Both the position numbers and the translations under genes were made by a program. 64,000 nucleotides of DNA from a virus. Shown here one piece after another: positions 11,367 to 63,300 of this stretch. Position 1 is the first letter of the stretch; each line of letters starts with the position of its first letter. The notes under the pieces were generated by a model. The model made no database searches. It worked only from the letters and a program-made list of their open reading frames with translations, and was not told the origin of the DNA. Where the stretch lies: IMG/VR virus record IMGVR_UViG_3300013132_005564, positions 1-64,000 of that record; one strand, given 5' to 3'.

Positions 11367-13586
11367 ATGGCGTGGAACTCCCGAACCAACAAGAACCTCG
11401 GAACCGACGGGACAAAGGCGCTGAATCCTGGCGCCCCGGTGGCCTACAACCCATCGCAGGTCGGCAGGCCGTACAGGGACTCGTGGGACATCGAGCGCGC
11501 ATACCGCGAGGGATTTCAGAAGGTCACCTGGGTGAATCGTTGCATCGACGCGATTTCCGGGAACCAATCTCGCCTGCCCATGATCCTGCGGGAGGACAAC
11601 AACCCATCGGGGAGGGTGGTCAGGAAGACGGACAGGAAGATACTGGACATCTTCAACACCAAGGCGAACATGGGGGAGAACTCGTTCGTGTTCCGCTACA
11701 GGTTGTCGTCGCAACTGCTCATGTCGTCGCGCGGGGCCTTCATCGAGAAGATCAGGGGGCGCAACGGCGAGTTGATCGCCCTCCAGTTGCTGCCACCCCA
11801 GCACACCGCCCCGATACCCGACCCGAAGAAGTTCGTGTCCGGCTTCGAGGTGGACATGCGCAACGGAACCAAGGTGACGCTGAAACCGGACGACGTGGTT
11901 TGGATCAGGAAGCCGCACCCTCTCGACCCGTACCTGTCGCTGACGCCCATGGAGTCCGCCGGCATAGCCATAGAGATAGAGAATCTCTCCAAGCTCTACA
12001 ACAGGAACTTCCTGCTCAACGACGGTAGGCCGGGCGGCCTGCTGGTCGTCAGGGGCGAGATAGACGACGACGACAAGGACGAGTTGCGCAACCGGTTCAG
12101 GGGCAACGTCGCGAGGGCTGGGGCCGTGACCGTGTTGTCCTCGGACGAGGGCGTCGACTTCGTGGACACCGGACAGAGCCCGAGGGACGCGAACTACGTG
12201 CAGATGCGCCAGATACAGAAGGAGGAGATTCTCGCCGCCTTCGGAGTCCCCGAGTCCGTGATCGGCAACGCCGCCGGCCGGACGTTCGCCAACGCCGCCG
12301 AGGAGCACAAGGTCTTCTGGAACGAGACGATGCTCCCGCACCTCGAGACGATCGCTCGCGCCCTCGACGAGCTCGACGACGAGTACTACATCGACTTCGA
12401 CGTTACCGACGTCCCCGTCCTGGTGCTCTACAAACAGGAGCGAGACAGGTACCTGATGAGCGAGTACCAGACCGGCCTGATCAGCGGCAACGAGTACAGG
12501 GAGGGCGCGGGGCGCAAGGTGATCGACTCCGAGCTGATGAACGCCATGCTCGCCAACCCGAACCTGACGCCGATCGGGTACACGAACAAGAAGTTCGTCC
12601 AGCAGCAGATGGGCATTCCGGGGATGGGCGGCGCGCCTGCGCCCGCAGGGGCACCAGGCGGACCGATGATTCCCGGCATGGGGCAAATTCCGCCGGTTCC
12701 CGGCGCCCCGGCAGTCGAGGGCGTCGCACCCGCCCCGCAGGAGGGCATGACGGCGGCGCTGCAGGCGGAGGATGTCGCGGCCGCGCAAGCCGGGCAGATG
12801 GGACAGGCGTCGGCGTTCGGGAACCAGGTGACCACCAAATCGCTCTGGGACGAGTGGGACGAGAAGGCGGAGAACTCGCTTGACAGGTGGACCGAGATAC
12901 TGGACTCCTCGCTCGAGCGTTTCGTGGAGCGTCAGCAGAGGGTGATACTCGAGAAGGCCGCCGGCTCAAAATCCAGGAAGGCGCTGGAGGCGGGGAGCCT
13001 CGACTACGAGAGCATCTTCGACCAGAGGATATGGGACAAGCAGCTGGCCGAGGACATGCGCCCGATCCTCAGCGGGATAATGAACGACGCCGCCACGCTC
13101 GTCTCCCAGGAGGTCGGAATGCAGGGCGAAATAGACGAGAAAGAGGCGGCGGAGCACCTGAGGGACCAAGTCGAGAGATTCCAGCAGATTAACGCCACCA
13201 CCGCCAAGGAGATAGAAGGCGCCGTGCTGATATCCATGTCGCTCGGCGAGGAGGAGGACAAAATGGGGATGCTCAAGGCCGCCCTGCTCGCGATATTCGT
13301 CAATTTGCTGAGCAAGCGAAAGAGAAAGATTGCCGAGCACGAGTCGCACGCCGCGTACAACGCAGGATCGTTCTACGCCGGTCGTTCGGTCGGCGCCGCG
13401 ACCAAGACGTGGGTCTCCGAGAAGGATGCGAAGGTGAGACCGGAGCACGCGGGTCTCCACGGCGAAACCGTGGCCATCTACGAGCCGTTCGTTGTCGCAG
13501 GGCAGCAGATCATGTACCCAGGTGATCCGACCGCCCCGATAAATCTGACCATGAATTGCAGGTGCAAGGTGAGGTTCGGATTCTGA
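11367..13586 (+). CDS. Portal protein fused to a MuF-like minor head domain
   Basis: A 739-residue fusion. Residues about 40-420 are an HK97-type portal: WVNRCIDAISGNQSRLPMI, SSQLLMSSRGAFIEKI, DVVWIRKPHPLDPYLSL, then RQIQKEEILAAFGVPESVIG and FWNETMLPHLETIA. A Pro/Gly/Ala-rich linker (about 430-485) joins it to a helical C-terminal part ending in the MuF signature (KTWVSEKDAKVRPEHAGLHG, then MNCRCKVRFGF). Portals form the ring for DNA entry; MuF-like domains are minor head proteins, usually separate genes, often ejected with DNA. Start ATG 11367 with AAGGAG 13 bases upstream. Confidence 0.93.
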   Translation: MAWNSRTNKNLGTDGTKALNPGAPVAYNPSQVGRPYRDSWDIERAYREGFQKVTWVNRCIDAISGNQSRLPMILREDNNPSGRVVRKTDRKILDIFNTKANMGENSFVFRYRLSSQLLMSSRGAFIEKIRGRNGELIALQLLPPQHTAPIPDPKKFVSGFEVDMRNGTKVTLKPDDVVWIRKPHPLDPYLSLTPMESAGIAIEIENLSKLYNRNFLLNDGRPGGLLVVRGEIDDDDKDELRNRFRGNVARAGAVTVLSSDEGVDFVDTGQSPRDANYVQMRQIQKEEILAAFGVPESVIGNAAGRTFANAAEEHKVFWNETMLPHLETIARALDELDDEYYIDFDVTDVPVLVLYKQERDRYLMSEYQTGLISGNEYREGAGRKVIDSELMNAMLANPNLTPIGYTNKKFVQQQMGIPGMGGAPAPAGAPGGPMIPGMGQIPPVPGAPAVEGVAPAPQEGMTAALQAEDVAAAQAGQMGQASAFGNQVTTKSLWDEWDEKAENSLDRWTEILDSSLERFVERQQRVILEKAAGSKSRKALEAGSLDYESIFDQRIWDKQLAEDMRPILSGIMNDAATLVSQEVGMQGEIDEKEAAEHLRDQVERFQQINATTAKEIEGAVLISMSLGEEEDKMGMLKAALLAIFVNLLSKRKRKIAEHESHAAYNAGSFYAGRSVGAATKTWVSEKDAKVRPEHAGLHGETVAIYEPFVVAGQQIMYPGDPTAPINLTMNCRCKVRFGF

Positions 13587-13643: not shown

Positions 13644-16600
13644 ATGAATCGTCGTTTATTATTGACCGAGGACATGATGAACCAACAAGTTTTTGAGGAC
13701 GAGGACTACCTCTACAAGTCCCTCAACGGCCAGATCAACGTCGATGAGGCGCAGGGTATCGTTGAGGCCTTCGTCGCCGGCGTCGGCAACAAGGACTCCG
13801 TGGGTGACATCTGTCTGCCGGGGTGCTTCACGTCCTCCCTCAAGCGCAGGAAGCCGCGCGTCGTCTGGGGCCATGACTGGAACTCCCCGATCGGCAAGGT
13901 CCTCGAGATCTACGAGGTCGGGCCGAACGATCCGCGCCTACCGGCAAAGATGCGCAAGGCGGGCATAGGTGGCCTCTACGCGAGGGTGCAGTTCAATCTG
14001 AAGGCGGAGAAGGGCAGGGAGGCTTTCGCCAACGTTTCGTTCTTCGGCATGGAGCAGGAGTGGTCCATCGGTTACAAGACCCTGGACGCGGTGTTCGACC
14101 CGGTTCAGACCGCCAATCTCCTGAAGGAAGTGGAGCTCTACGAGGTGTCGCCGGTTCTGCACGGAGCGAACCAGCTGACGGGGACGATATCGATCAAGGC
14201 CGACGAGGCCGAGACGCAGATCAAGGAAGGGAAGGGTCCTTGCTGGCCTGGATACAAACAAGTCGGCATGAAGAAGGGCAAGCGCGGGGGGATGGTCCCC
14301 AACTGCGTGCCCGTCGATGGCAAATCGCTCGAGGACGAGTGTTGCCCTGAAGAAAAAGCGGCCGACAAACCGGCCCTGCGTGATCCCAAGGGCGGACTCA
14401 CGGCGGCCGGTCGGGCCCACTTCAAGCGCACCGAGGGTGCGAATCTGAAACCGGGCGTCAGGGGCGCGGCCGACACGCCGGAGAAAATGCGCAGGAAGGG
14501 TTCGTTCCTCACCCGCTTCTTCACCAACCCGAGTGGTCCGATGAAGAAGCCGAACGGAAAACCCACGAGACTCGCCCTTTCGGCGGCGGCGTGGGGGGAG
14601 CCGGTGCCGCAGAACGCGTCGGACGCATCCGCGTTGGCGGCGAAGGGTCGTCGTCTGCTGGAGAGATACGAGAACTCAAAGAAGAAGAAGAAGGACGACG
14701 AGGATTCGATCGAGAACAAGAACCACGTCGCGGCGATCTACGCGGCCGCGAGCGCCCCGCAAAACGAGACGTTCGGGAGGGCATCGCAGCTGACCAGGGC
14801 GTTGGCCGCGAGGTTCGGCGGCCCGGTGAGGTTGGTGACGGCGGACAACGACATAGCGATCTTCGAGATGGGCGCGGGTCAGTCGACGGAGACGATGAGG
14901 GTCGCCTACCACTACGACGGGGATGAGTTCATGATCGGCACGGCTCAGCAGGTGAAGCCAGAGACCGTCTACATCCCGATAAACCAGACGACTTCCGGGC
15001 AGACCGTAGGCGGAGTCACCGCCGGCATATCCGCGCAGCACGGGCACCACGCCGGACACCAGGGTCATTGCTGCCCTGGGTGCGGACACGGTGGGAGTTG
15101 CGACGCTTCCGTCGCCCTCTCGCCGGGCGATGACCCGAGGATTGCGTTCGTAAAACTCAAGTCCCTGGGCGACCAGCTGAATTTCAAGGTGGTCCCGACC
15201 GACGGGGGATTCATACTGGAGGGGTTCGGCCTCCTCAACGAGGAATCCCAGGATTTCGTGGCGAAGAAGGTCGCCGAGGACATGGAGAAAAAGTTCCTGA
15301 ATCCGATCGGGAACGTTTCCCGAAGGAGCCTTGGCGTCCCCGACATCAGAGGATTCGTCCGTGGTTTCAACGTGGACATGAACCCGCTCACCGCGAGGGA
15401 CGCCGACCTCGACAGGCTGGTCCTGGAGGGCAACCCGCTCATCAACATGGGCCGCGGCATCCCCGACCCCACGCCTTTCGGTTCGGCCAACAGACCGTCT
15501 TTTGATCTGCCCGCCGCACGCGGGGACTTGGATCTCGGCGCCCCGAGGATGATGCCCGCCGTGCCCGACGTGCCGCGAAGGGAACCCGAGGAGGTCCCCG
15601 AGCCCGTCAAGCCAAAGGCGCCGCCGGTCAGGCCTCCGCGCAGGGAGCCGTCAAGGCCCGAGAGGGAACCGACAAAGCCGCCAGTCCCCGTCCCGACGAG
15701 ACCCGAGAGGGAACCGGCAAGGCCGAACACCCCGGTTCCGGTTCCGGTTCCGGTGCCAACGAGACCCAGGGAACCGGTCCCGATCGGCGAGGCGAGCAAC
15801 GACAATTTCGCCATAGCGGCCATGGGCGGCGGAAAGCGCACGCCCAAGCAGATAGCCGAGGCGCTGGCGAGCGTCGATTCCGAAAAACGCGAGAGCAGGC
15901 AATCAAGGATGATCCGTCTGCGCGACAGCGGGTTCGACGAGATGCGACGCCTCATGCTCCTCGACGGACCGGATGCCGGAATGGCCGATCCGAACAGGAA
16001 CGGACGCCGTGGACGCGCCGTGCGAATCGATTCTGACGAAACGCTCGAGGAAGTTCTCAGGAGAAGAAGAAGCGGACAAGACATCTCGGACATGACGGAG
16101 GACATTGACCTGCCGAATCCTGGAGACCGTTCCCTCACGGACCCAACCCCTGGGGATGCAGGAATGGCGGGTCGCCCTAGAACGAGGGAGGAAAGCGCTG
16201 ATCTTGGGAGAAAGATCTGGTTGGCAAGGACTCACGACAGGCTTTCGTTGGAGGAGGCTGGCCGTCGCCACGGAGTCTCAAGAGAGGAGGCCCGTCAACT
16301 TGAGCTGAGGCACCAGAAGTACCTGCGAGATCTCGGTGTCGACCATCCGAACAGGGTTGGCAGAGCGACGATCGACGACGCAAACAGTGGTCTGACCGAC
16401 GCCGAGGCCGACCTTCTCCGCAGGCGCCTTGACGGCGAGATGCTCGAGGAGGCCGCCGAGCGACTTGGCACAGACAGGTTTGCCGTGAGAAGGATGGAAC
16501 AGCTTGCTCTCGCAAAACTCAGGAACAGAATAGTGCAAGGTGACGCCGACGCTGGCATGGCCAGGGGCGATGGAGGCAGGGCGGTAGAAGCCGACCGCCC

Positions 16601-28615: not shown

Positions 28616-28819
28616 ATGAACGGCAGACCAAGCGGCGGGTACACCCGCGGGAACCGTGTTATGGGTTATGATAAACCTACACAAAATAACGCAGTCAAAT
28701 TGAAATATCACTGCATTGCGACGGGCGAGAAACGCCAGTTTCCGTGCGGCAGTTGCGTCAACCACAAGGGTTGCCTGGCGACGACGATGCAATACAAGGA
28801 GCGAAAACATGGAACCTGA
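28616..28819 (+). CDS. Small Cys-rich protein (zinc-ribbon-like)
   Basis: A 67-residue open frame ending at TGA 28817-28819, overlapping the start of the next gene by 11 bases. The C-terminal half reads KYHCIATGEKRQFPCGSCVN then HKGCLATTMQYKERK, giving Cys residues in a C-x11-C-x2-C-x5-C layout that could bind zinc. The ribosome site is weak (GAGCGAG), and an internal ATG at 28661 is possible. The coding potential is moderate because the 5' half is unremarkable. It may serve to couple translation of the acidic protein that follows. Confidence 0.5.
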   Translation: MNGRPSGGYTRGNRVMGYDKPTQNNAVKLKYHCIATGEKRQFPCGSCVNHKGCLATTMQYKERKHGT

Positions 28820-30832: not shown

Positions 30833-33800
30833 GTGACTCGCCTCGAACGACACCTGACCAAAAGCCCGGGTGAGAAGTCGCTCGGACCGACCATCGGTGG
30901 TGCACCGAGGAACCTGAATCCGTTCACTGCAAGGGACGCCGACCTGGACCTGGTGGTCCTTGAGGACATCGAGACGATCAACTTCGGTCGAGGCGTCCCG
31001 GACCCGACACCCGGCGGAGCCGCGGAGACGCCGTCTGCGCCAAGATTGAGATCGTCCCTCTACGCGAACGACGAAAATTTCGCCGTCGCGGCGATGTCCG
31101 GCCCGGATCGTCGCCGGAGTTTCAGTGAGGAGAAAGACCCAAGCGACATGAGCAATCCGGACGGTCACTTCCCGCGAGAATCCGGACCGATGTGGAAAGA
31201 CACGAATTTCACGGCCCTGAACCTCGCGCCGAGGACGCGGAGAGGCGCCAGCCCGGCTTCGGTGAACACGTATCTCCACGCCGAATGGACCGAGCCGTAC
31301 TGGGACGCCGTCAGGGACGACACGGGGATATGGAACTCCCCGCCACCGCCCGAGATGGAGGTCGAGCGCGCCATCTACGACGCCATGAAGAGAGAGACGA
31401 TAGATGTCGGCGGGTACAACGTTCCGTTCCCCAGGCATCCGAAGGAATCCGACTACCACCAGGAGACCGACTCGACGGGTGCCACCTTCACGCACCTCCG
31501 TGCCACGCGAAGTTTCCCCTTCCGCGACAGGGAGAACTCAAGGTGGACGGACGGACACCCGTTGTACCACGCGACACCGACCGGCTCGTTGCCGAAGATA
31601 CTCGCGGAGGGGCTGGTCGCAAGCGCCGAGCGTCAGTTGTGGTTCGGGGCGTCACCGACGGTGTGGAACGAGCAGTTCCCGCACAACGCCCCCCTTCGGC
31701 TGAAGTCACCGGTCAAGGGAATGTCGTTCCTGCGGATCAGCCCGACCGACGCAATGAACGAAAGGCTCTCCCTCCTCGCAAGGGTGAGCGATGTCGATCG
31801 AGCCACGCTTCCCGGCCATCTGGCGATCGATTCGGCTGGAAATCCAATCGGGCCCAGGGATTCCAGGACGCAACGGGCGGTTGGCCTCTACGGCGACGCC
31901 CTATTTTTTGACGACGTCAAGATACCGGGAGAGAACATCGAGGTCCTGAACCAGAACGGAGAATGGATCCCGTTGTACAAAACGGACCTTTCGGACGTGG
32001 TTTTTGACCCCTCGGACGGCGCCGACGCGGGCATGGGCAACGAAGGCGGCCCGAAAGGGAAAAGGATTTTCAGCAGGTTGTTTCGCGCGAGGGACCGCGG
32101 TGATTCGCAACCACCGCAGGAAGTCGTCCCGACGCCAAAAAGTTGGAAGAGCAACTACTCGAATTCTTACGGGGGAGACGAGTTTGTCAAGGGGGAACAG
32201 AGGCTGGAGAGAATAAAGCAGCAGGGTTTGGCCGCATCGGGCGAGTGGAGAAAGATCCACAACGACCACTACGACTGGTGGGCCTTCCCGATAGACCGAG
32301 GAAGCGCGTCGTTCGGCGAGACCTTCAACGTGGCGGGCGATCCGCTCGAGAGACTGAAGAAGGACCCGGAATTCCTCAGCAGCCTGGCCAAAATCATGGA
32401 GGTGCAGGCGGCCGCCCTCGGCTGGTCCCTCTACGAGGGCAAGTATTTCGACCGGCTGGATTGGGACAAGGGTCAGGATTGGAACATGGCCTACCCGACC
32501 AGACTTTGGAAAATGACCAGATCCGCCCAGATCTTCGGCCTTGAGCGGGAGTTCGAGTCTCTGCTGGACCTCCAGGAGTCCCTCGAGGCGGGGGGGATCG
32601 TGTTCGGCAACCATCGCTCCTACTGGGACAACCCGGGGACGGTGGACGACGTACCCTCGCTCGGAAAATCGTGGACGGAGAGGGAGGATGAACGAAAGAA
32701 AACACAAACGGCGAGTGGCGCCGCCAGCTGGACCAGCCCGTACCGTTCGCAGCCCGAGTATCCCAAGCAGGGTTCCGACGATTCGCAAATGACGCTCCTG
32801 GAGGAGGATCGGGCGTGGGACGCCTATGACAACTACGAACCTCCGGTCTTCCCGGTCGTGTCCGACGCCGAGGAGCTGGCCGACATCCTGTCGGAACCTG
32901 ACGAGGTGATCGAGTTCGGTTACCCGTACGAGCGAATAGACAAAGAAACGAGACAGCTGATCGCCGACGACATCTTCTTCGCCGTCTCCCTGTTGATGGA
33001 CGGAGAGTTCCCCGACGAGGAGTTCACGGACAGGCTGGAGTCCGCCGAACAGATGAGGCGATACGCGGACGAGCAGGAGGGTCTGTACCCGGACGACGGG
33101 GACATCCTGTACGCCCTGGCCGACGCGCTGGAGAACCCCGTCTCGTTGTACGAGGACGCCGTCTACGAATCAACCGACGGCGAGGCCGGGATGGGGCGCA
33201 AGCCGTCGCCCGAGGTGCGGGCACTCGTCGAACGGGTGGCGGAGATGCACAACGGGGGGAAAAGCGCCACGCAAATCGCCGAGGAGTTGGGGATCACGCG
33301 CTACAGGGTGCACAATTACCGAACGATTGCGAGACGACGGGGATTGCTGACTTCACCCCGTCAACGCACCGCGGCAGAAATGAATGAGTTGATTGGCGAG
33401 GCTACGAGGTTGTACAACGAGGGGAAAACCCGGCCGGAAATGGCGAGGGAAATGAATCTTCCCGTGAGCACGATCAACAACCTTCTGCAACGAGCAAACG
33501 AGCGCAAGCTACTTCGCAACTACAACCCTCGAGGGTCCGGAAACTTCAAGAGAACCCTCAGAACCCCCGGAAACATCGCCGCCGCCGCCGACAAGTACAG
33601 GCAGGGAAAGACGACAGCTCAGATCGCCGAAGAACTTGCGTTGACGGAAAGCTCCGTTATCAAACTAATTGGGGAGGCGAGACGCCTGGGGCTGGACGCG
33701 GGACCCCGTCGCTATCGAACTTCGCCCGAGCTTGAGGAACTGATGCTGGAGGTGGCGATCAAGTACGAGGAAGGAAAGCTAATGCGCGAAATTGCGCAGG

Positions 33801-36124
33801 AACTGGACGCCGATGAAACTACTGTCCAAAATCTGGCAAACAGGGCCGCGCAACTGGGTTTGATTCGGAGGGACAGAGTAGAGAGAGCGGGCGACGCCTC
33901 CGATGAATTGACGAAACAGATCATGGCCAAGCTCAGGGAGGGCAAGAGCCAGCGACAAATCGCGCGGGAACTGAACGTTCCCTACCATCGGGTCAACAAC
34001 TTGATCAAGAGGGCCAGACGGGTTCTTGCTCCAGACCCAAGAAAGGCCAGGTTGAGGAACTCATCCGAGTCCCTCGGGGACTCGGGAGCCCCCGACGGCG
34101 AGGCGGGGATGTCCTCCCGAAAAATCCCCAAATTCAACGGAGGCCACAGCAGCAGGGGGAGGGGGACCCCGTCGGGTGACGGCAAGGACCAGGCGATGAG
34201 GGATGTGGCAGACAGCGCCATAGTTGAGTTGGCGAACGACGAGAGGAGCAGTTCGCGTACGACGCTGGAGACGCTCGGGTCGTACCGGGCCGGGAGCATG
34301 GTCGTGATGCTGGCGAGAAACGGGGAGCTCCGAGGCCTTCCACTGAGGGACGAAACCATCCAGGCAATAACGAACGCCCACGAAGACGGTGCAACGTTCG
34401 TCGTTGGGGACATGCCGGGCGTGGATTCGCAGTTCGTGGACTATTTGGAGAAAATCGGGGCCGACTACACGATCTACCATGCGGGGAGTTCGCCGAGGTT
34501 CAGTCCGCAACCGCCCGACGCGCTCGGGGACGCGCCACCCGAACTCCTGGCGCGCGCGACCGACGACGAGGCGCAGCTAAACGTCCTGTACTCGGTACCC
34601 GGGGTCGCGGCAAGCGTCAGGATGAGGAGCACCGACGGTGCGCCCGTCGCCCCGGGCAAGAACGCAATCATGAAGCCGTACCTTCTGGCTCCGCACATAG
34701 ACGTGAACGATTTGGACGCGTCGGACCCGGCAATCCAGTCCCTTTCGCCGGCACTGAAGGCCGCCGGGTTGGGATCCTACGAAGTCACCGGGCACTCGTC
34801 CCCGAAGGTCCAGGGACCGGTGGTGAAGGAGTTCGCGGACAGGCTGATAGGTCCCAGTGCCGTCGCCAACGCCGTGCTCGGAACGTTCCCGACCGCGGAC
34901 GAGATGCTGACGATATACGCAGTAAACGCACTCATCAGGGCGAGGGCGGAGTACCTTTCCGACTCCGTCCTCGACGCGGACCAGGTAAACGAGGCAATCC
35001 TGTTCGGAAGAGTCCTTCAATTACCCCGGAACCTGTGGGAGAAATCGCGGCTCGACCGCTCCGTATACCTCGACCCGTTCTCCTACTTCGGCGGCAAGTC
35101 CAACTTCCTCAAGGCCGTGATCGACGCGTTGCCGGAACGGGTCAGATCCGGGCTGGCCTTCTCCCCCGCCGCGGAGAGGATACCCGGCGTCACCTATCAG
35201 GACCGGTCCTGGGGGGACACCTCGCACTTCGAGAGCATCATAATCAGGGAAGACGACGACCTCTCCAGGAGGTTCGCCCCCATGGTCAGGAATCAGGCGA
35301 AAATAGTGGTGGACCACGCCAGGCGACACGACGAGCTGACGAAGAAGTGGGCGCAAACCGCCTACGACCTGATGAAGGAGGCTGGCCTGACGGACGCAGA
35401 GGTGGCTTTCGTTATCAACGAACACTGGACGAAGGCATCGAGGTTCAAACTCGCCACGGTGCAACCGGGGAGCGTGCTGGGTCACGCGGCGAGGTTGGGC
35501 GTGAAGGCGTTCTCCTCGAGGTACTCGCCGATAAACAGGGCCGTCACCAAGCGCATAGAAAGCGTCCAATCCGGGGGCCTCCGCGAGGAAGAGGATTTCG
35601 GCCTGCACGAGTTCTTCCACCACTACCTGGGCCAGGGTTTCACCAGGCACGGGGAGTACGTAGCGTTCAGGGGTCCGGCCGATCTGATCGATTCCTACCA
35701 CGGGCACATGCAGTGGGCCTGGAACGACACCGGTCAGCTTGGGATGTTCGTCTCCAGGGTCATGACGCAGGAGTTCGGCCGCGACGAACAGCCCGGCGAG
35801 TCGGTCGCCGTTTCGTCGCGCGTACTCTTTGACACCATCGGCAGGGCCATCTACGACAGACTTAAGGAGATGCTCTCTTCGGCCGAGGACAGGCGAAAAA
35901 TAATGGATCAGGTCTTCCCAGAATTCCACGGGTTGCCCAGCGAGGACGAGGCGAAGATCAAGGAGCTGATCCGAAGGCAGTTCGCGGTCAGGGACTTGAG
36001 CACCCGCCAGTTTGCGGATAACATGCCCATACTCAGACTGCTCACGGCGCAGGACTTGCTGGTGCCGAAGGCGTACTGGCCCTACGGGGGCGAAACCAGG
36101 ATAATCGGAGGGAGCAAACAATGA
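30833..36124 (+). CDS. Polyvalent protein with ART-like stretch, HTH array, SLOG-like fold and zincin motif
   Basis: A 1763-residue protein starting with GTG 30833 (GGGGG upstream). Order: SLGPTIGG plus the DADLD...GRGVPDPTPG module (30-65); NFAVAAMS (AAM, Met 88); a stretch with HPLYHATPTGSLPKILAEGL and FFDDVKIPGENIEVL, resembling ADP-ribosyltransferase-like folds (about 240-385); AGM at 401; a region with HNDHYDWWAFPIDRG (about 475); AGM at 787; five resolvase-type HTH repeats (788-1090); AGM at 1093; a Rossmann/SLOG-like segment (SMVVMLARNGELRGLPL, TFVVGDMPGVDSQFVDYLEK, about 1150-1220); and an HEFFHHYLG motif (H1592) in a long C-terminal domain. Each AGM motif lies at a domain edge. The set of domains matches phage polyvalent proteins. 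Confidence 0.85.
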   Translation: MTRLERHLTKSPGEKSLGPTIGGAPRNLNPFTARDADLDLVVLEDIETINFGRGVPDPTPGGAAETPSAPRLRSSLYANDENFAVAAMSGPDRRRSFSEEKDPSDMSNPDGHFPRESGPMWKDTNFTALNLAPRTRRGASPASVNTYLHAEWTEPYWDAVRDDTGIWNSPPPPEMEVERAIYDAMKRETIDVGGYNVPFPRHPKESDYHQETDSTGATFTHLRATRSFPFRDRENSRWTDGHPLYHATPTGSLPKILAEGLVASAERQLWFGASPTVWNEQFPHNAPLRLKSPVKGMSFLRISPTDAMNERLSLLARVSDVDRATLPGHLAIDSAGNPIGPRDSRTQRAVGLYGDALFFDDVKIPGENIEVLNQNGEWIPLYKTDLSDVVFDPSDGADAGMGNEGGPKGKRIFSRLFRARDRGDSQPPQEVVPTPKSWKSNYSNSYGGDEFVKGEQRLERIKQQGLAASGEWRKIHNDHYDWWAFPIDRGSASFGETFNVAGDPLERLKKDPEFLSSLAKIMEVQAAALGWSLYEGKYFDRLDWDKGQDWNMAYPTRLWKMTRSAQIFGLEREFESLLDLQESLEAGGIVFGNHRSYWDNPGTVDDVPSLGKSWTEREDERKKTQTASGAASWTSPYRSQPEYPKQGSDDSQMTLLEEDRAWDAYDNYEPPVFPVVSDAEELADILSEPDEVIEFGYPYERIDKETRQLIADDIFFAVSLLMDGEFPDEEFTDRLESAEQMRRYADEQEGLYPDDGDILYALADALENPVSLYEDAVYESTDGEAGMGRKPSPEVRALVERVAEMHNGGKSATQIAEELGITRYRVHNYRTIARRRGLLTSPRQRTAAEMNELIGEATRLYNEGKTRPEMAREMNLPVSTINNLLQRANERKLLRNYNPRGSGNFKRTLRTPGNIAAAADKYRQGKTTAQIAEELALTESSVIKLIGEARRLGLDAGPRRYRTSPELEELMLEVAIKYEEGKLMREIAQELDADETTVQNLANRAAQLGLIRRDRVERAGDASDELTKQIMAKLREGKSQRQIARELNVPYHRVNNLIKRARRVLAPDPRKARLRNSSESLGDSGAPDGEAGMSSRKIPKFNGGHSSRGRGTPSGDGKDQAMRDVADSAIVELANDERSSSRTTLETLGSYRAGSMVVMLARNGELRGLPLRDETIQAITNAHEDGATFVVGDMPGVDSQFVDYLEKIGADYTIYHAGSSPRFSPQPPDALGDAPPELLARATDDEAQLNVLYSVPGVAASVRMRSTDGAPVAPGKNAIMKPYLLAPHIDVNDLDASDPAIQSLSPALKAAGLGSYEVTGHSSPKVQGPVVKEFADRLIGPSAVANAVLGTFPTADEMLTIYAVNALIRARAEYLSDSVLDADQVNEAILFGRVLQLPRNLWEKSRLDRSVYLDPFSYFGGKSNFLKAVIDALPERVRSGLAFSPAAERIPGVTYQDRSWGDTSHFESIIIREDDDLSRRFAPMVRNQAKIVVDHARRHDELTKKWAQTAYDLMKEAGLTDAEVAFVINEHWTKASRFKLATVQPGSVLGHAARLGVKAFSSRYSPINRAVTKRIESVQSGGLREEEDFGLHEFFHHYLGQGFTRHGEYVAFRGPADLIDSYHGHMQWAWNDTGQLGMFVSRVMTQEFGRDEQPGESVAVSSRVLFDTIGRAIYDRLKEMLSSAEDRRKIMDQVFPEFHGLPSEDEAKIKELIRRQFAVRDLSTRQFADNMPILRLLTAQDLLVPKAYWPYGGETRIIGGSKQ
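31552..31965 (+). other. Possible ADP-ribosyltransferase-like domain
   Basis: Residues about 240-378 of the 1763-residue protein. HPLYHATPTGSLPKILAEGL resembles the first-strand H/R and following I-x-x-x-GL of ART-like folds; the end ALFFDDVKIPGENIEVL resembles the closing strand. The expected central S-x-T/Y and E motifs are not certain. Alternative: an unrelated alpha/beta domain. Confidence 0.4.
33194..34100 (+). other. Array of five helix-turn-helix domains bounded by AGM motifs
   Basis: Five HTH units 60-70 residues apart: KSATQIAEELGITRYRVHNY, KTRPEMAREMNLPVSTINNL, KTTAQIAEELALTESSVIKL, KLMREIAQELDADETTVQNL and KSQRQIARELNVPYHRVNNL. Each shows the A-x-E-L-x-turn-x-V/I recognition helix of resolvase-type HTH. 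AGM motifs at 33191 and 34109 enclose the array. Confidence 0.85.
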
Positions 36125-47675: not shown

Positions 47676-50425
47676 CTCGCAGAAGGATAGGTTCCAAGCG
47701 CACGAGCCGAGACTCATTCGTCGACGACAAGACCGACGCTGCCCTTTTTTCGGTATCGGAGCTCGCCGAAACCGTGAGGACGAAGGTCATGCGACCGATC
47801 GGCGCCGGTCCGCTTCCGCCACCCCATCTGGTGAGAAACGCGGACTCCGACCCGTTCATATACGAGGGAATACCGTGGATCAATAGAGGACGAGGCATCA
47901 TCGATCCGACCCCGGGCAACTTGCAACCACTCAACAGAAGGCTGAGGAGGGAGGCGCGCGCAAGCATGGGCTCGCCGAGCAGGAGCAGCACCTTCCGCAC
48001 CAACGCCAGAATCACCTACGGCGATTCGGACTCTCCGCTCGCCGCGATGTCGTGGGGCGAGATATCCACCCGTCAGGGGAACATAATAAACGCCGAGGAC
48101 TCGCGTCAAGCCGTCAAGAAGGCCGAGACCAGGGTGGACGCGGTTCTGGGCAACAGGCCGGCGACCATGGCCGAAGCCGTGAGGAATCTCAAGCGTCTCG
48201 AGACGATAACGAACGGTGGGGCGCCGAACGGTCGAAACTTCCTGCTGGATCTCCCCTACTTCGAGGCTCAGATGCAACCGGAACTGACGACGCTCAGCCC
48301 GCGTTTCGCGGGTGACGCCACGCAGATGTCGCCGTACGACTACGGCATCTACTACGCCCTCGCGGGGAACATGATCGATTTTCCGGAGGCCTTCGAGAAC
48401 GTCCATCTGGTGATGGCGACGGACAACAACCCCGACATCAAGGGCGATGACGACGGGGTCGGAGGAAGCGCCATGGTTTTCCCGATCTACACGGCGCTAA
48501 AGCCCCAGGCGCTTGAAGACAGGAGAGTCGGGGACATGGATGCCAGGTCCTCCCTAGGCGTAAAGGACATGTCCAAAATCGGCGTCGCTTTCTTCGGCAA
48601 CGACGCAACCGCCTCGGGCGGGAGAATACCCGCGGTCATCCTGATGCCGATAAACAGGTCGCCAGAGCAGCAGAAGGCGACGTTCACTCCGACTGGTTTG
48701 ATCGCGGCGTTCGGCACCTTCTTGTCGCAGGCGCTCGGTGTGCAGGCGCAAGCCCCCGAGATTCCTCTACCCACTCCGGAGGACACGGTGGACAGGTACC
48801 TGGACATGCTCAGGGACTGGACGAGGATATTCAAGAAAACCGGGTCGGTGCCGAGGTTCCTGATGGACGGAGTCGCCTCGAACGTGATCATGGGATACCT
48901 GCTGGAGGCCGAACAGCTGGAGGAGAGGATCTCCCAACTGAAGCAGGTGACGGGAGAAGGGGACTCGCAGGTGCGCCTGCAAATGGTCAGGGACCTGGAG
49001 GACCGGCTCGACAAGATAAACGACGAGGCGAGGCAGGCCTACGCCTACGCCGTTGCGCTCCACGAGGTTGGCCACGTCCTCGACTACGTCGGTTCCTACA
49101 AATCCTCGTCCGCGTACGCAAACGCGACGAGGGCGGCGTCGTTCGGATTGAACTCAAGCATAGAATCCACGAGGGACATCGTCGCCCTGCGAGCCTTCAG
49201 CGCGGGGGTGGTCCACCCGGCGACGCGGGACATGACGCAGGCGATGTCCAGAAAGTTCATGAAGGACACGCTCACCGGGGTCCTGAGGAACGAGGACGTG
49301 CGCAACCGCATTCCGGAGATGATTGACGACATCCAGAAAATCGTGGACTCCCTGAACGCCAACCACCAATCGATCACCCAGCTCGTACCAGGCGGCGCGA
49401 CGCAAGACGTGAATGCGTGGGCGGAGGACCTGCTCAACCGTGACACGGCGACGATAGGCACCTCCACCGCCCAGGAGATAGTCCGGCCCATCATCAGCGG
49501 CGGATGGGTTCCCAATGCCCTCATTGCCAACCCGAGCCGCCTCGAGTCGCTGGCGGACTCGTCCATGGACGAAATCAAGGCGCTGGGTGCCGAGAGCGAG
49601 CTCCTGAAAGTGAAACCCCTCGGAATCACCGCGTACGACCTATACAAGTCAAACGTGGAACGAATAATCAAGCCGCTGGAGGAAAAAATAGCCAGACTAC
49701 CGAGCCCTGTCGGCAGGAGCTTGGCCAAGGCCGTGGTCTCGGCGGTCGTCCACGAGGCGTACGTCAAGATGCTGCAGGGTGCGATGGAGAGCCTCGCCGA
49801 GACGCATCGGGATGCGGAGGCGAACGCCCAGTCGTACTCGTACCTGCGCTCCTGGATCAACCAGCAGACGATTGACATGGCGAATTTCCCCTTCGGCGGG
49901 CAGCGCAAGCTGATAACCGACATGTCAGCGTCCAACCCCGCCGCGGTCAGCGAGTTCATGACGCTGTACGGCACGACCCAGGGCAAGCCGTGGTTCGACG
50001 ACCAGGGCAATTTCAGCGACACCAAGTACCTTCAGTACATATTCTCCAACCTGACCCAACCGAAGGGCGTTGACATAATGACCGCCATGAAAATGGTGAA
50101 TTCGTGGTTCACCGAGAGCGAGACGAACGGTTGGAAAGGCCTGCCCGACGATCTGATTCAGCTGGTGCGAGAGGCGGTTCCGCACATCACCGAATACGCG
50201 GGACCAGCCGACTACAACCATGTTGTCCCCCTGCCCGTCGGGGAGTTCGCCAGCAACAAGGAGACCTACGCCGAGCTACACCCGATAATGCTCATGAAAC
50301 TCGAGAATCTGATGCGCCTGCTCTCGGAGCAGGAGCGCGAGGCGGTCGAGAAGCTCCACCAAGCGATGATAGACGCCGCCAGAGGACTGATAAAATCTCA
50401 GTACAGACCTGGAGGCAGGCCGTGA
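47672..50425 (+). CDS. Polyvalent-type protein with HExxH zincin motif
   Basis: A 917-residue protein. ATG 47672 overlaps the stop of the giant protein (ATGA). The N-terminus carries LPPPHLVRNADSDPFIYEG, then IPWINRGRGIIDPTPG (about residues 48-85), nearly identical to the 1827-residue protein. A SPLAAMSWGE motif (AAM, Met 126) follows. A central domain ends with AYAVALHEVGHVLDYVG (HEVGH, His 464), a zincin signature; further helical regions follow (SLAKAVVSAVVHEAYVKMLQ). The protein could be a peptidase that is ejected or acts in head maturation. It contains only one AAM site, unlike the longer proteins. Confidence 0.82.
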   Translation: MTRRRIGSKRTSRDSFVDDKTDAALFSVSELAETVRTKVMRPIGAGPLPPPHLVRNADSDPFIYEGIPWINRGRGIIDPTPGNLQPLNRRLRREARASMGSPSRSSTFRTNARITYGDSDSPLAAMSWGEISTRQGNIINAEDSRQAVKKAETRVDAVLGNRPATMAEAVRNLKRLETITNGGAPNGRNFLLDLPYFEAQMQPELTTLSPRFAGDATQMSPYDYGIYYALAGNMIDFPEAFENVHLVMATDNNPDIKGDDDGVGGSAMVFPIYTALKPQALEDRRVGDMDARSSLGVKDMSKIGVAFFGNDATASGGRIPAVILMPINRSPEQQKATFTPTGLIAAFGTFLSQALGVQAQAPEIPLPTPEDTVDRYLDMLRDWTRIFKKTGSVPRFLMDGVASNVIMGYLLEAEQLEERISQLKQVTGEGDSQVRLQMVRDLEDRLDKINDEARQAYAYAVALHEVGHVLDYVGSYKSSSAYANATRAASFGLNSSIESTRDIVALRAFSAGVVHPATRDMTQAMSRKFMKDTLTGVLRNEDVRNRIPEMIDDIQKIVDSLNANHQSITQLVPGGATQDVNAWAEDLLNRDTATIGTSTAQEIVRPIISGGWVPNALIANPSRLESLADSSMDEIKALGAESELLKVKPLGITAYDLYKSNVERIIKPLEEKIARLPSPVGRSLAKAVVSAVVHEAYVKMLQGAMESLAETHRDAEANAQSYSYLRSWINQQTIDMANFPFGGQRKLITDMSASNPAAVSEFMTLYGTTQGKPWFDDQGNFSDTKYLQYIFSNLTQPKGVDIMTAMKMVNSWFTESETNGWKGLPDDLIQLVREAVPHITEYAGPADYNHVVPLPVGEFASNKETYAELHPIMLMKLENLMRLLSEQEREAVEKLHQAMIDAARGLIKSQYRPGGRP

Positions 50426-50808
50426 ATGACGAAAATTTGTTAGCAATAACCACCGAGGTCGGCCACATGACGGCAGACCAGAAACGACAGATGCTGGGCC
50501 TGGACGGCGCTACGGCGGAGCAGATCGTCAAGCCGGCGGGCGAGGAGGACGTTTTCTACGTGACCGAGTCCAACCCCGGGGCGAAAAACATGGTCAGGTC
50601 AATGCGGGAGGGCATGGTCAGGGCTGGTCGCACCCCGGAGCAGAGAATGGCCATCATGTCCGCCGTCATTCCGTCAATAGCGAAGGCCCACGCCTCGCCG
50701 AGCAAGCCGATCGACACATACTCAACCGACGAGTTGGCAGAGGAGTCGGGAATGAAGATAAGGCAAATCCAGCAAAAACTCGCGGAGATGATCAAACGTG
50801 CAAAGTAA
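50422..50808 (+). CDS. Hypothetical protein with possible C-terminal HTH
   Basis: A 128-residue protein starting with GTG 50422, with GGAGG seven bases upstream and a GTGA overlap with the previous stop. Residues include EVGHMTADQKRQMLGLDGAT then AEQIVKPAGEEDVFYVTE. The last 35 residues (YSTDELAEESGMKIRQIQQK, then LAEMIKRAK) could form a helix-turn-helix. No known family is recognised. An open frame from 50104 is a shadow upstream of this start. Confidence 0.7.
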   Translation: MNDENLLAITTEVGHMTADQKRQMLGLDGATAEQIVKPAGEEDVFYVTESNPGAKNMVRSMREGMVRAGRTPEQRMAIMSAVIPSIAKAHASPSKPIDTYSTDELAEESGMKIRQIQQKLAEMIKRAK

Positions 50809-53456: not shown

Positions 53457-56400
53457 CTCAACCTTCTCCAAGGTCGTTGACTCGGAAACCGGGACGACCT
53501 TCGCCGTGCTCGTGGCGTCGTCTGACGGGATTACGGCTCACGGTTCCATGAAACAGGGGGTGGAGTGGGCGACGTGGGTGAACAGGGGCGAGAAGTCAAT
53601 GGCCCGGATCGTTCGCTCGCTGGACCCCTCGCTGGAGATCACCAAGTTCGTCCCACTCAACGAGGAGAACATTCTCCTGAAGTCGTCGTCCTTCGGCACC
53701 ACGACCGCAAAGGAGCTGAGGGTGCATCTCGAGAGAAAATCGCTGGGCGAGGACCTGACGAAGGCCGCGGATCCCACCAACCCGCCCCAAAAAACGAACC
53801 CCGAGGGGGTGGATGAGCACCAGCCGGAACCGGAGTACGAGTCGCTCAGTTCCTGGATGATGTCGGACGTGGCGGTCAGCGAGTTTGACGTGCAGATAAA
53901 GCAGACGGCCGTGCACTTCAAGGCAATGCAGTTCATGCGAAACAGGAGGTTCTCGTCTTTCCTGTTGTCGGTTAAACAGACGAACGCGTCGCTCGTGAAC
54001 GGTAGTTGGGCGACGCGCCCGTCCCTCGCCCCCGCCATGGGCGACGTGCTCAATTCGTACGACCGAAAGACGAAGTTGCACGCCTCGGAGTCGCTCGGGT
54101 TGTCTGGGTACTTCAACAAGGCCTTGCCGATCGGCATGCGACAGCTGCCGCCGCCGCACCTCGTCAGAAACGCAGACAACGACGCCTACATCTACGAGGG
54201 AATCCCGTGGATCAACAGGGGCCGCGGGATACTCGATCCCACACCTGGCAACGCCGCCAGCGCCATCAGGAGTGGGGTCAGGGCCTTCGGCGGGAGAATG
54301 ACCGACATAGTCGACAGGACGAACAGGATTTCAAGACTGACCCGGAACGACGCCGAGAGGATGCGTCGTCTCGATCTGGTGCCGGCATCCAACGACATCG
54401 CCTCGTTGCTGCCGCAGGGCGAGGAAACTAGAGCCGCCATGGGCAGGATGCGCAGGAGACTGGCCAGTCTCGCTGACTCCGTCGCGCCGTCCGAAAGGAC
54501 GAGGGGGGACGGCGAAGAGGTCCTGACGAGAAGGCAGGCGAGGCGCAACGAAGAGGCCCTCGCGAGGGCCGGAATCAACCCCAGCGCAACAAGCTCACCC
54601 GACGAAGAGACCGCATCCGCCGGCATGAGGAAGGTGACCGGCGACGATCCGCAGGTGCCCGAAGTCGTCAATCTTTCCGAGAGAAGAAACGCGCAACCCG
54701 ACACGGAACTGACCGGGCTCGAAGAGACGGAATCCGGCAGGGTCGAGAGAGGCGCAAAACCCAGGTCCGACGGCAACGGGATGCTGAAGAACCTCCTGTC
54801 GAGACTCTCGAGGGGGTCAAAGCGAATCAATTCAGCAGATTCGCCCAACCCGCCAGAACTGGATGAGAGCGACGATTTGCCCGACTACGACGGTCCGCAG
54901 GTCGTGAAAGTATCCGATGATCCATGGCAAATGGATCCGGCGACGAGGGACATGCTTTTGGCGGCACTGAAGGACGCCGTTCCGGCGGGGACGTACGCCA
55001 CCTTCAGCTCGAGATTCGGGGAGGACGACCTGGACTGGCCCAATTTTTCGCCATCCGAGCAGTCGTCGCTGTTGCGCGAGCTGGGGTACCGCCGCGACGA
55101 ATTGCTCGACATCGTAACGGAGCTGATGACTCCCGAGTTTTCGGCAGACAAGGACTACAGAAGCGACGGGGTCGTCACCCCGGAATCGGTCATTGAGGCG
55201 ATCCGGAATGACTTCGTGTCGTTGAGGTCGGGCGGAGTGAACCTGTACGCCGACGTGATGGCGCTCGTGGCGATCAACGACATCCTCTCCTCGAAGGACC
55301 ACGAAACAGAGGCAAGGGCGTCCGCATGGAGGATGATTGACAACAGGAACAGGAGCGTCGTGTCCAGGAGGGCGGACATTCAGCGCAGGGACGTGAGGGA
55401 GGCGAGCTCCAGCAGAATTTCTGGGCCGGTCGGAGAAAGGACCGTGATCTCACAAACGGGGGGTCGGGGGTCCGACTCTTCGGTCCGCCGGGTCGCCCTC
55501 AGCAAGCTGAACCCGAGGGTTCTGGTCCTTGCCACGGTTCCCGTCGCCCCCGGCAGGTTGCTGAGCGACTACTCGGACGAAGAAAGGGCCGCGCTGCTCT
55601 CCAGCGCGACGCAGATGAGGGCTTCGATAGCCGAGCACCTCGCGAGGAAGATGGGTCTGCCGAGCGACACAGAACTATCCGAGGACGTCATAGCGAACTG
55701 GATGGCCAACAACTCGGACACGGACGGGTCAAAAATAGGCGTGTTCGCCCACAACCTCATCGTCCTCGACGATCTCGCAATCGCAGTCAATTCTGGCAAG
55801 CCGGGGAACGACGAATGGAACGCCCTGACCATGCCCGCGAGAGACAAGATAATCAGCAACGCAAACGTCGGATCGCGACCCGAGGTCGCAAAGACCAACC
55901 AAAGCCAGCGACGCCGCGGGCGGCCGACGAAATCGCCGGCTCCGCCACTTCCGCCGACCCCGCCAAACCAGACACCGCCGCAAACACCGGCAGGTCGCAC
56001 GCGCCCGCAGATCGGAATGACTCCGCCGAAGAACCGGATCGCCGACTGGCAAGACCCAACGCAGCCGGTCCCGGAAACGGTGGACGCCTCAACGCAGATG
56101 GTCACGATCGCCGGCGAGGACGGAGCGGAGAAGCAGGTCTTGCTCAGCTCCCTCGGCAGGCCGAACCAGTATGACTTCTCCAACACCGTTTCGGTCAAGG
56201 GGATTTCGTACGTAATGGAGAACCAGACCGGCCTGTACAGGGACCCGGTGACCGGGTTGTTCCTCGACGACTACAGCGGCATCCCGATAACCCTCGGCAA
56301 AACGGTCCCCCGGCCCAGGGAACTGGAACAGGTGAACCAGAAGAGGGGCGCACCGACGGTCAGCTACCCATCCATCCAATTGTCCGAAAAAAACAGCCAA

Positions 56401-58929: not shown

Positions 58930-59345
58930 TGTCGGACTCGGTCAATCAACTCACCCCGCTTGAGGTATCCGAGTACGTGGACGAGTACTCGGCGGTTGCC
59001 GAGATAGCAAAGTACCCGCCGTTCAGTCTGCCTCGGTCACCGAGGGAGTCCGAATTCCTGCTCGACTTATCCCGCGAGTTCGACGCGTTCGTCAACGGCG
59101 ACAAACCGTACGACTCCTACCAGTCCGTCCTTGACGAGTACGAGCCGGAGTTGGTGAGGGCGAGGGCGTGGAAGTCTTTGGGTTACGATCCGGTGCGCGC
59201 AACACGGGAGGCGATCAAGAAGGAGCTGGAGGAAACCGGGCTGGACCCGAAACACATGCCATACCGGACAGACAACGTGTTCGACTCCCAAGCAAAGGTT
59301 TTCGTAATTTTCGCAGAAAAAATCGTTCCCTGGGAGTTCCTGTGA
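58926..59345 (+). CDS. Hypothetical acidic protein, 139 residues
   Basis: ATG at 58926 overlaps the previous stop (ATGA); a second ATG follows at once (58929). GGGGG lies just upstream. Largely helical and acidic (TPLEVSEYVDEYSAVAEIAK; ESEFLLDLSREFDAFVNGDK; VRATREAIKKELEETGLDPK). No family is recognised. Coupled to both neighbours, so part of the same transcript. Confidence 0.7.
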   Translation: MMSDSVNQLTPLEVSEYVDEYSAVAEIAKYPPFSLPRSPRESEFLLDLSREFDAFVNGDKPYDSYQSVLDEYEPELVRARAWKSLGYDPVRATREAIKKELEETGLDPKHMPYRTDNVFDSQAKVFVIFAEKIVPWEFL

Positions 59346-60340: not shown

Positions 60341-63300
60341 ATGGACGAATCAATTCAGCCTGGGGATTGCTGTCCGTTGTCTGACGATGACATAGAAACA
60401 AAGGACGTCTCGTTCGGTCCGCGAATGGTGAGGCCGGACAGTTTTGATGCATACGTTGACAAGGAATCAGCCAGGGCCAGGGCGAGGATGCTCGGTTGCA
60501 TCGGCATCAGGCAATACGGTTCAACCAATGGCGGGACGGTGTGGATGCCGTGCAGCAACGAGTCCGACTACAGACGGGTGACGGGCACCAACTTCTCGGG
60601 TCGCAGGCAGAGGCGAAGAATGCTGAAGGCCGAGCTGGGAGAAGGCATCTCGAAGAAGGCGCTCGGTGCGACCATAGGCATGGTTGGCGGAAGAGTCAAC
60701 ACGAACCCGGCAACGGCCATAGACGCCGACCTTGACGGATTGGTTCTGGAGGGTCTGCCATTCATCAATCTCGGTAGGGGCGTGCCGGACCCGACGCCTG
60801 GCGGCACAAACGAGCTGTTGCCGAACGCAGACAACAGGAATTTCGCCATGGCGGCAATGTCGAATCGCAGGGGGCCGAGGATCTCGCCCCCCGGCGAAAT
60901 TGAGCTTTCCAGGGATGGCGACGACTCCGCTTCGCCCGCGACGAGGATGCCCAGCCAGAGGGCAACGCGCTCCAGAAAGAGGGAGACGACTTTCGCCGAT
61001 GTGGACACAGACAGGTTTGACGAACTGATAGCGAGGATTGCGGACGACGTTGCGAGTTCAGAGGTGGCCGCGGATGTCTCCTCGGACGAAGCTGTCGGCA
61101 AGTTGCTTGACGACGTCAGGGGCATCGCATCTTCGGTGGCGGAGGTTGTTGACGGGCACATTGACTCCCGTCCCCGAAGGAGCACGTCGACAAGGGACGC
61201 GGCCGAGGAGACCTCAACGCGAATCACGGCGAAGGCCATTGGGACCGTGATGGAGATCTCCAACAACCCGACGCAGTCGCTATCGGAAAACGAGAATCTC
61301 ACGAGGCTCGTGACCTCATCCATAATCGAGCGTGGCGCCGCGGAAGTGGCGTCGTTGACCGGGAAACCTGGGATATGGGCATTCCTGGTGCAGGCGATGA
61401 TCGGCGGCGCCTACGCCACCCAGAGGGCCTGGGAGTTGCTTGCCAGAATTTTCGGCGTGGAGAACAACACCGGTTGGGTTCCAGAACCGACAGGCAGGTT
61501 CGCCGAGGCGCTCGCCCCCAGCCTCGCAAACGAGCGGAAGAAAGCCGCCAGAAGTCGAGCCCTTGACTCCTCCGGGAGGGCCATTGACGCACTGCGCCAG
61601 GCTGGATTCGCGATATCGGACGCATCCGAGGTTCCGGCGATAGCGGACGACATGGCCTCGGCGCTGGATTCCCCGGAGCTGATTGAGTTGCCGGGCGACA
61701 AGAAACCCGGGCCGGCGCCGACGCTTGACGCTCTCGACGAAATAATCCAGAGGATCAACGCGACGACCGGCAAGACCAGGCCGCGGGGCGCGCGCAAGCC
61801 CTCGTACTCCAAGTACAGGGGGACGAGCGAGGAAATACTTCGAAACAGGATGGACATAGCGGGCGTGCCGAGCGGCATAGACGATGTGTACCGCACCAAC
61901 TCGGTTGACGTCCCGACGGACAACGAGCGACTGGCAGCCAAGCTGATCTCTACGCCGGGACGAAATGGCCAAGGCGCGCTCAACGCGGAACTTCTCTACA
62001 GGGCGCTCTCGGACAGATCGGCCCTCAGGTCGTACGTGTCGCCCGTTGATTCACCCTTCGTGGCGCAACTCGCGACGCTGATAGAGGAGGGGAGGCTGCC
62101 ACGTCTCGCCGACGCCCTGCTGGAAATGTCGCCGCAGACGGTGGAAAATTTCCTGGCCGTTCCGCCGCGACCAATCATCTCTGCGGCGAGGGCCGCGCGC
62201 AAGACTCTTCGCCCGTCCGGGTCGTGGATGGCGAGAATATCCAACGACCCCTTTGAGACCGCCTTCCACATGTTGAGGGCCAAGGACTACCACCTTTCTT
62301 CCATATTCTCCGGCGCCGACAGCGGAAAGCTCACGGATGCCGTAGACGAGCTGGTCGGCAACAACGTATCCGAGACGGCAGCGATATTCGGGTCCTTGGT
62401 CGCCTTGAACAAGGAAAGGCTCGCGGAGGCGTACGACGGATCGCAGAGCGTCGCCCAAGGCGGCAACCGCCTGCTCAGGACCGCGAGGAACCTGATCGCG
62501 TCGGCCACCGAGAACGACAGCGTGTGGGCGGCGACCCGGGACTCAATCTCCGACGTCACTGCGGCGATGCTCGGCGGGGACTCCGCCGATGCGGCGATGT
62601 CCCGGCAGGTGGTCAGGTTCGGGAGCAACTACCCGAGGCACAGGAGGAAGACGGGGGACTGGTCGCCGATCGCCAACAAGATAAGAGACGGGGTCAAGGC
62701 CTACAGGGCAAGGTACGGTCCGATTGCGTCAAACTCCGCGGATCTCAGTCGCTTCGTGAATTTTTCCTACCCCGAGCTCTTGAGCGAGGCCTCCGAACTG
62801 ATCGATTTGATGAAGGAGAAGGTCGAGTTCGGGTCCCTAAAGTTCGAGGACTACGCGCGCAACGGGTGGATAAACCGGGACACGGCGGAGCTCGACGTTG
62901 ACGAGTTTGACCCGACGAACCTGGAGACGATCTTCGACAAGGGTTCGCAGATGGGTCTCTTCAAGTCGATCGGCGTGGTCCTCGTGGCTGCGTCAAGGGT
63001 GGCCCCGTCGCGCGACGAGAGGGAGGCCGTCCTCGACCTGATGGATGAGGTCAACGAATGGACGTTCACCGCCCTGCCCCTCTACTCGGAGCCGCGGTCG
63101 GTGACCGACAGGCGCCGCGGGATATTCCCGTCGTCCGCATCGGCCGACGCAGGAATGACCGTCAACAGGCCCGTGCCCGACGACGTCCGGCAAACACTGA
63201 TGTCCCTCACTCGCCCGTACGACTCAGGACAGACGCAGGGTCTGCCGACGATCAGGATGCAGAGGAAGCTCGTCGAGAAGGCCAATGAGCTCATGAGGAA

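Follow-up and report, generated by a model that had tools for sequence, protein, structure and literature searches.

An array of five helix-turn-helix domains as a probable released cassette of motif-joined cargo polyproteins in an uncultured tailed phage

In a phage protein of 1763 residues, a row of helix-turn-helix (HTH) domains is located between two copies of the sequence DGEAGM. This raises the question whether the segment is a domain of a giant protein or a protein of its own, which is cut out at the two motifs, and by which enzyme this would be done. The window analyzed here, a stretch of 64,000 bases, comprises bases 1-64000 of a virus record of 84,498 bases, which is an uncultured metagenomic contig. 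A preliminary description of the window had proposed that the segment consists of five resolvase-type HTH domains and nothing else, and that it might be released as a DNA-binding protein of 34 kDa, which could enter the host with the genome or coat packaged DNA.

Five tri-helical HTH units in a row were indeed found by Pfam, AlphaFold2 (AF2) and structural matches. In Pfam scans many overlapping HTH families matched the same segment (HTH_23 2.6e-17, Sigma70_r4_2 4.7e-17, HTH_7/resolvase 7e-8). Structure prediction, which had been suggested as a check, gave five tri-helical HTHs in an AF2 model of residues 720-1156 (helices at 74-116, 128-171, 193-232, 246-288 and 294-346 in model numbering), with blocks mostly at pLDDT 75-88 and both DGEAGM motifs in linker stretches with pLDDT <50. 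Because the alignment contained 3 sequences and the whole-model pTM was 0.24, the individual HTH units of the model are believable and their mutual arrangement is not. Structural matches of single HTHs were to the DNA-binding domain of DeoR (7bhy, Z 9.1, 1.9 Å over 52 aa), to SorC, LsrR and LuxR-type domains and to the Tn3 resolvase (Z ~6). The assignment as HTH therefore holds, but the term resolvase-type is not specific, as DeoR/SorC or LuxR-like domains fit equally well or better. No resolvase catalytic domain was identified beside the array, where the listed Pfam and PHROG matches are HTH_7 and HTH-only recombinase stretches. For the whole five-HTH array no credible PDB match was obtained (best Foldseek E 0.033), only single-domain matches.

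The segment, first given as 33191-34111, is bounded by the two DGEAGM motifs, but its start moves to 33194, since counting from 33191 takes in the last codon (Met) of the first motif. It holds almost nothing other than the five HTHs, except for a probably disordered tail of 23 residues (1071-1093) that ends in the second AGM motif. A molecular mass of 34.4 kDa was computed, in agreement with the earlier value, together with a pI of 10.2 and a net charge of +16; the pI of the three neighboring units in the same protein is 4.4-5.9. Relatives of the array were found from an alignment query only in G003, G010 and L172, and no close relatives were found in annotated phages or in a single-sequence scan of viral contigs.

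The 1763-residue protein, here called polyprotein 2, had no match in annotated phages. It consists of unit 1 (with a tag of about 50 residues shared with other cargo proteins), unit 2, the HTH unit and unit 4 (with a zincin-like HEFFH motif). It is encoded by one of four giant ORFs (4370, 1763, 3781 and 5330 aa) that are located between the portal-MuF protein and the HK97-type capsid protein (record 76665-78011). Polyprotein 1 shows a mix of domains of the polyvalent type (S78, DUF6321, sigma70_r4 and exonuclease), and HTHs, NUDIX and zeta-toxin domains are found elsewhere. Two features of polyvalent proteins are present, namely several unrelated domains per chain and a location of the cargo ORFs among virion genes, with the portal upstream, the capsid protein downstream and the terminase on the minus strand. 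A host search of GTDB genome contigs identified no relative of the portal.

Several further observations were made in this region (coordinates of the main features are listed in Table 1). A Rad52-like protein and the terminase large subunit (8619-9656 and 9799-11112) lie on the minus strand and are thus transcribed away from the structural genes. The 701-aa ORF (28716-30821) contains a 117-bp unit in 1.8 copies at 100% identity (29064-29278), with a GAGGAAGAC run; this repeat is a recent tandem duplication. The 191-aa protein (50798-51373), which is without Pfam match, has a HHETTGLWPNEGCHHP segment that is strongly conserved in ten genomes. The 365-aa ORF (59168-60265, DUF3721/DUF5872-like) is separate here and its homologous region lies within a giant ORF in G017 and G018. 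A NUDIX and a zeta-toxin/AAA_33-like kinase domain form the last two units of polyprotein 4 (record 74444-76333, L003:10453-12330), and such units are parted by NAGM, EAGM, DSGAM or SGSM in five genomes.

Table 1. Coordinates of the cargo ORFs, the HTH unit, junction motifs and associated elements in the window.
Feature	Position	Strand	Remarks
Portal-MuF fusion protein	11367..13586	+	upstream of cargo region
Polyprotein 1, 4370 aa	13644..26756	+	8 AGM motifs; N-terminal S78 prohead protease
Peptidase_S78 domain, candidate processing enzyme	13746..14201	+	residues 35-186 of polyprotein 1
Shared ~50-aa element, polyprotein 1	15345..15497	+	residues 568-618
Sigma-70 region 4-like domain	16389..16526	+	inside unit 3 of polyprotein 1
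Polyprotein 2, 1763 aa	30833..36124	+	GTG start; HTH unit is third of four units
Shared ~50-aa element, polyprotein 2	30881..31033	+	residues 17-67
Further AGM junction in polyprotein 2	32027..32035	+	DGAD-AGM-G, residues 399-401
AGM junction motif 5' of HTH unit	33185..33193	+	DGE-AGM-G, residues 785-787
HTH-array unit	33194..34111	+	residues 788-1093 of 1763-aa protein; Pfam, AF2, structural matches, sequence composition
HTH 1	33215..33358	+	residues 795-842; AF2
HTH 2	33386..33532	+	residues 852-900; AF2
HTH 3	33566..33715	+	residues 912-961; AF2
HTH 4	33737..33886	+	residues 969-1018; AF2
HTH 5	33896..34042	+	residues 1022-1070; AF2
AGM junction motif 3' of HTH unit	34103..34111	+	DGE-AGM-S, residues 1091-1093
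HEFFH zincin-like motif, polyprotein 2 unit 4	35606..35620	+	residues 1592-1596
Polyprotein 3, 3781 aa	36330..47675	+	9 AGM motifs
HEFNH zincin-like motif, polyprotein 3 unit 3	38478		residue 717; similar motifs in G003, G006
Shared ~50-aa element, 917-aa protein	47792..47923	+	residues 41-84
Shared ~50-aa element, 1827-aa protein	54127..54258	+	residues 228-271
Polyprotein 4 start, 5330 aa	60341..64000	+	10 AGM motifs; runs to record position 76333, past window
Shared ~50-aa element, polyprotein 4	60659..60814	+	residues 107-158

The motif that flanks the HTH unit recurs throughout the four giant proteins, in which AGM was counted 30 times compared with a mean of 3.6 (maximum 13) in 2000 shuffles. 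For the stricter pattern [DESN]AGM[ASG] the count was 23 compared with 0.26 expected (maximum 3). The four polyproteins comprise about 34 units, of which the HTH array is one. All 13 domains or tags that were checked, including the S78 protease, DUF6321, sigma-70 region 4, exonuclease, HTH array, KTSC, NUDIX and zeta toxin, lay each within one inter-motif unit. As in viral polyproteins, modular units with a conserved junction motif are present. Disorder propensity was higher at the motifs than at other Met residues in five of five genomes, and the linkers around the motifs were of low confidence in two AF2 models, made from shallow alignments of 3 and 5 sequences. Some AGM sequences are not junctions, such as GAGMF inside the NUDIX region of G003 and G006.

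A portal search for relatives resulted in 80 loci, and the larger records were then examined in pieces. All motif-bearing records are uncultured metagenomic contigs, and several of the genomes are closely related and not independent. The AGM dialect is common to phages whose portals are identical at about 91% or more, and more distant relatives have the same layout of giant ORFs and another spelling of the motif. The dialects are (D/E)AGM, DSGxM (G010), P(S/T/V/A)GxM (G009 and G011-G013) and (I/V/L)(S/T)GxM (G014, G017, G018 and many partial loci), in which the next residue is usually S, A or G. AGM was counted 28, 29 and 25 times in G000, G003 and G006, DSGxM 30 times in G010, P[STVA]GxM 15, 7 and 8 times in G011, G012 and G013, and [IVL][STVA]GxM 16, 15 and 18 times in G014, G017 and G018, with the other dialects near zero in each genome; as the patterns were derived from the sequences later counted, these numbers are descriptive. 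By these counts each genome uses one dialect almost exclusively. All spellings can be described together as [S/T/V/E/D/N]-[G/A]-x-M with a small residue after Met; the register of AGM against SGxM is taken from our own alignment and is supported by GPEAGM opposite GPVGSM.

Unlike the pattern counts, the position of the junctions in MAFFT alignments is an independent test. In these alignments junctions correspond between dialects far above chance: 8 of 30 coincided within 3 columns between G000 and G010 and 6 of 30 between G000 and G011, where randomly chosen residues would give about 0.3 and randomly chosen Mets 0.5-0.7. Within the same dialect, G000 and G006 shared 21 of 30. Many junctions have no cross-dialect alignment and some units have no orthologues.

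The comparison also indicates gain, loss and duplication of units as well as their transfer from one polyprotein to another. Units are homologous one to one across dialects, with similar lengths, and some of them have homologues in other phages that belong to a different polyprotein. Tandem duplication is seen in this phage, where units 2 and 3 of polyprotein 4 are copies of each other, and in G017, where VSGKM separates two adjacent copies of a G000 unit. In G018 residue 2888 is the end of a junction, and the region homologous to the last G000 unit begins at residue 2890. The HTH unit contains four HTHs in G003, five here and six in G010, where it is flanked by DSGRM and ETGRM, and in G003 two extra units are inserted after the HTH unit, one of which is a second HTH array.

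The most likely agent for the predicted cutting of the junctions would be the S78 prohead protease. A Peptidase_S78 domain (Pfam E 7e-11, phrog_80 1.3e-26), related to annotated capsid maturation proteases of actinophages, heads polyprotein 1 and was present in 22 of the 23 relatives searched. In G014, G017 and G018 it is encoded by a separate ORF of about 780-820 aa, and therefore would act in trans. Position 81 of S78 is S in the acidic-motif dialects (7/7) and E in the Pro/hydrophobic dialects (24/24), and it is located near a GHDWN segment, which we take to hold the catalytic His. This covariation with the dialect is suggestive and amounts phylogenetically to about one event. Between phages of the AGM and DSGxM dialects the S78 domain has an identity of 91%, so that little has changed for a shift in specificity. 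AGM is absent from the major capsid protein, the expected substrate of S78, which has a conserved GRNGANM instead. In T4, phiKZ and SPN3US, the characterized prohead proteases cleave behind Glu and not at G-x-M (PMC5694885).

Cleavage by a different enzyme, either a zincin-like cargo unit (HEFFH, HEFNH) or an unrecognized cysteine protease, is considered doubtful. HExxH motifs are conserved in polyproteins 2 and 3 of G000, G003 and G006 and in polyprotein 2 of G010, and embedded metallopeptidases are the favored releasing enzymes in polyvalent proteins (PMC5512222). In addition, the motif resembles the AG-X and GG-X sites of the maturation proteases of poxviruses, adenoviruses and asfarviruses, and Ala-Gly-X sites are used in the processing of vaccinia core proteins (PMC4837287). 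However, an HMM search identified the zincin-bearing unit of polyprotein 2 only in G000, G003, G006 and G010 and not in the motif-bearing G011, G014, G017 and G018. The zincin was rejected as general junction enzyme, since it was not found in all motif-bearing genomes, whereas S78 is the only recognized protease that was found in all of those compared. The Pfam scans listed no cysteine-protease family. For cleavage by S78 or another protease, the obvious options for the scissile bond would be that between Met and A/S/G, or the Gly-Met bond, which would resemble the Ala-Gly-X sites of vaccinia.

The cargo proteins share a second element of about 50 aa, NPxTARDADLDxxVLE...INxGRGVPDPTPxG or, in a shorter form, TARDADLD...LEG...INxGRGVPDPTPxG, which occurs once each in five proteins that are otherwise unrelated; polyprotein 3 gave no detectable copy. 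The polyprotein 2 copy is directly followed by the junction motif in G010 and G011. By analogy with the capsid-targeting sequences of T4 and P1 (PMC5694885, PMC9024508), the element is a candidate head-targeting tag. It bears on a further explanation, in which the motif would serve for linear binding or as a spacer between domains, for example for packing on a scaffold or capsid, and the HTH array would remain a domain of the whole 190 kDa protein. Giant proteins can be packaged, as described for the 250 kDa DarB of phage P1 (PMC9024508), but this explanation is improbable: the separate element is available as targeting tag, the motifs are located between units and not at termini (the last motif is 269-670 aa from the C-terminus), and a protease accounts better for the strict Met with a small residue after it and for the joint respelling of 15-30 sites in each genome.

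In another explanation AGM would be an internal translation start (GAGG-5 nt-ATG) or a remnant of gene fusion, and the HTH protein would be made by internal initiation. The DNA at the motifs before and after the HTH unit (GAGGCCGGGATG and GAGGCGGGGATG) can be read as Shine-Dalgarno (SD) sequence plus ATG, and the residue after the motif is usually A, S or G, like protein N-termini. This explanation is very unlikely, as the Ala and Gly codons of the motif vary over all four synonyms, SD scores were lower than or similar to those of control Mets in G000, G010 and G011, and no complete stand-alone gene for a single downstream unit was found in relatives. Internal ribosome-binding sites at AGM were rejected on the codon variety and the SD scores; a mild excess of the scores in G003 and G006 is explained by a Glu codon that is common before AGM there. 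As codons vary and an SD pattern is missing, selection on the motif is concluded from the sequences to act at the protein level. Because of this conservation as protein, the position at junctions, the disordered flanks and the concerted, lineage-specific spelling, release of the HTH array as a basic protein of 34 kDa is the best reading. What stands of the release proposed in the preliminary description is that the HTH array behaves as a cassette of its own, with a motif resembling a protease site at either end, at which cleavage is predicted; the wider set of about 34 units and the change of spelling between relatives are not part of that description.

Taken together, it is probable that the giant ORFs encode motif-joined cargo polyproteins, cut most likely by S78, and that the HTH unit is one of the released cassettes. 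Four giant proteins would be translated from the structural gene region as independently folded units on disordered linkers, each linker with a short cleavage motif, in this clade (D/E/S/N)-A-G-M followed by A, S or G. During head assembly, a phage protease, most likely S78 as first unit of polyprotein 1, would cut the linkers and free about 30 proteins, among them the basic five-HTH protein. The products may be packaged in the head and ejected into the host, as suggested by where the genes lie (portal, S78 protease, cargo ORFs, major capsid protein) and by known phages in which internal head proteins are processed and packaged. The five-HTH protein would then bind the packaged or newly injected phage genome or the host DNA early in infection, and control transcription or mask the DNA. 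The chances of this early DNA-binding role are judged to be about even, as the protein is basic, varies in HTH number and belongs to a cargo set with a sigma-70 region 4-like unit, which was found in 7 of 8 motif-bearing genomes. A structural role in the head is possible.

The closest known class are the polyvalent proteins (PMC5512222), which are likewise large multidomain chains of unrelated domains in portal-terminase phages. They combine peptidase, nucleic-acid-binding and effector-like domains, and it is predicted that they are packaged, cut by peptidases within the chain and injected; some contain assemblin-like peptidases at their C-termini. Here, in contrast, there are four giant ORFs per genome, about 30 recurring motifs with genome-specific spelling and S78 at the N-terminus of the first ORF; neither a recurring junction motif nor its genome-specific spelling in four giant ORFs per phage is described in the accessible part of PMC5512222. 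T4 gp21, phiKZ gp175 and SPN3US gp245 are likewise head proteases with a short-motif specificity that mature many head proteins, and the internal proteins of T4 lose a targeting sequence at their N-terminus (PMC5694885, PMC10052503). However, these enzymes cleave behind Glu (A-X-E in SPN3US), in most cases to trim a propeptide off a protein that has its own gene, whereas the cuts proposed here would be at G-x-M or A-G-M and would free many products from polyproteins.

DarB and DdrB of phage P1 are likewise very large packaged polyvalent proteins, of which DarB has a 30-residue N-terminal capsid-targeting sequence and DdrB is proteolytically processed; in the accessible parts of these sources (PMC9024508, PMC5512222) no repeated-motif polyprotein is described and no such HTH array is mentioned. 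Precursors of poxviruses, asfarviruses and adenoviruses are likewise cut at short Gly-containing motifs (AG-X, GG-X) during virion assembly (PMC4837287), but those viruses are unrelated and use cysteine proteases, none of which was recognized here, so that the likeness is an analogy only. The actinophages GMA6, Gray, DalanDe, Cantare and Gilgamesh likewise have the portal, large ORFs, S78 (about 33-41% identical) and the capsid protein in one region, and no junction motif was evident in these cultured phages. Gp48 of the Streptomyces phage Gilgamesh (L168:5979-19853), with 4624 aa between portal and protease and without evident junction motif, is a cultured system for comparison. In the open-licence literature, no description of such a phage polyprotein system, or of the term 'phage polyprotein', was found.

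About as likely as not is the broader proposal, namely that a group of tailed phages makes much of its head cargo as true polyproteins with about 30 sites, one protease with a jointly drifting code (AGM, DSGxM, PVGxM, ISGxM) and exchangeable effector and DNA-binding cassettes, including an HTH array that is released into the virion for injection. If true, a DNA phage would use a polyprotein strategy like that of RNA viruses for proteins probably carried in its head. The junction motif would then be a direct parts list, by which unknown phage proteins could be divided into exact units and expressed singly. The dialects would form a natural series for the joint change of a protease and dozens of its sites, and the exchange of cassettes would show how phages might assemble their injected cargo.
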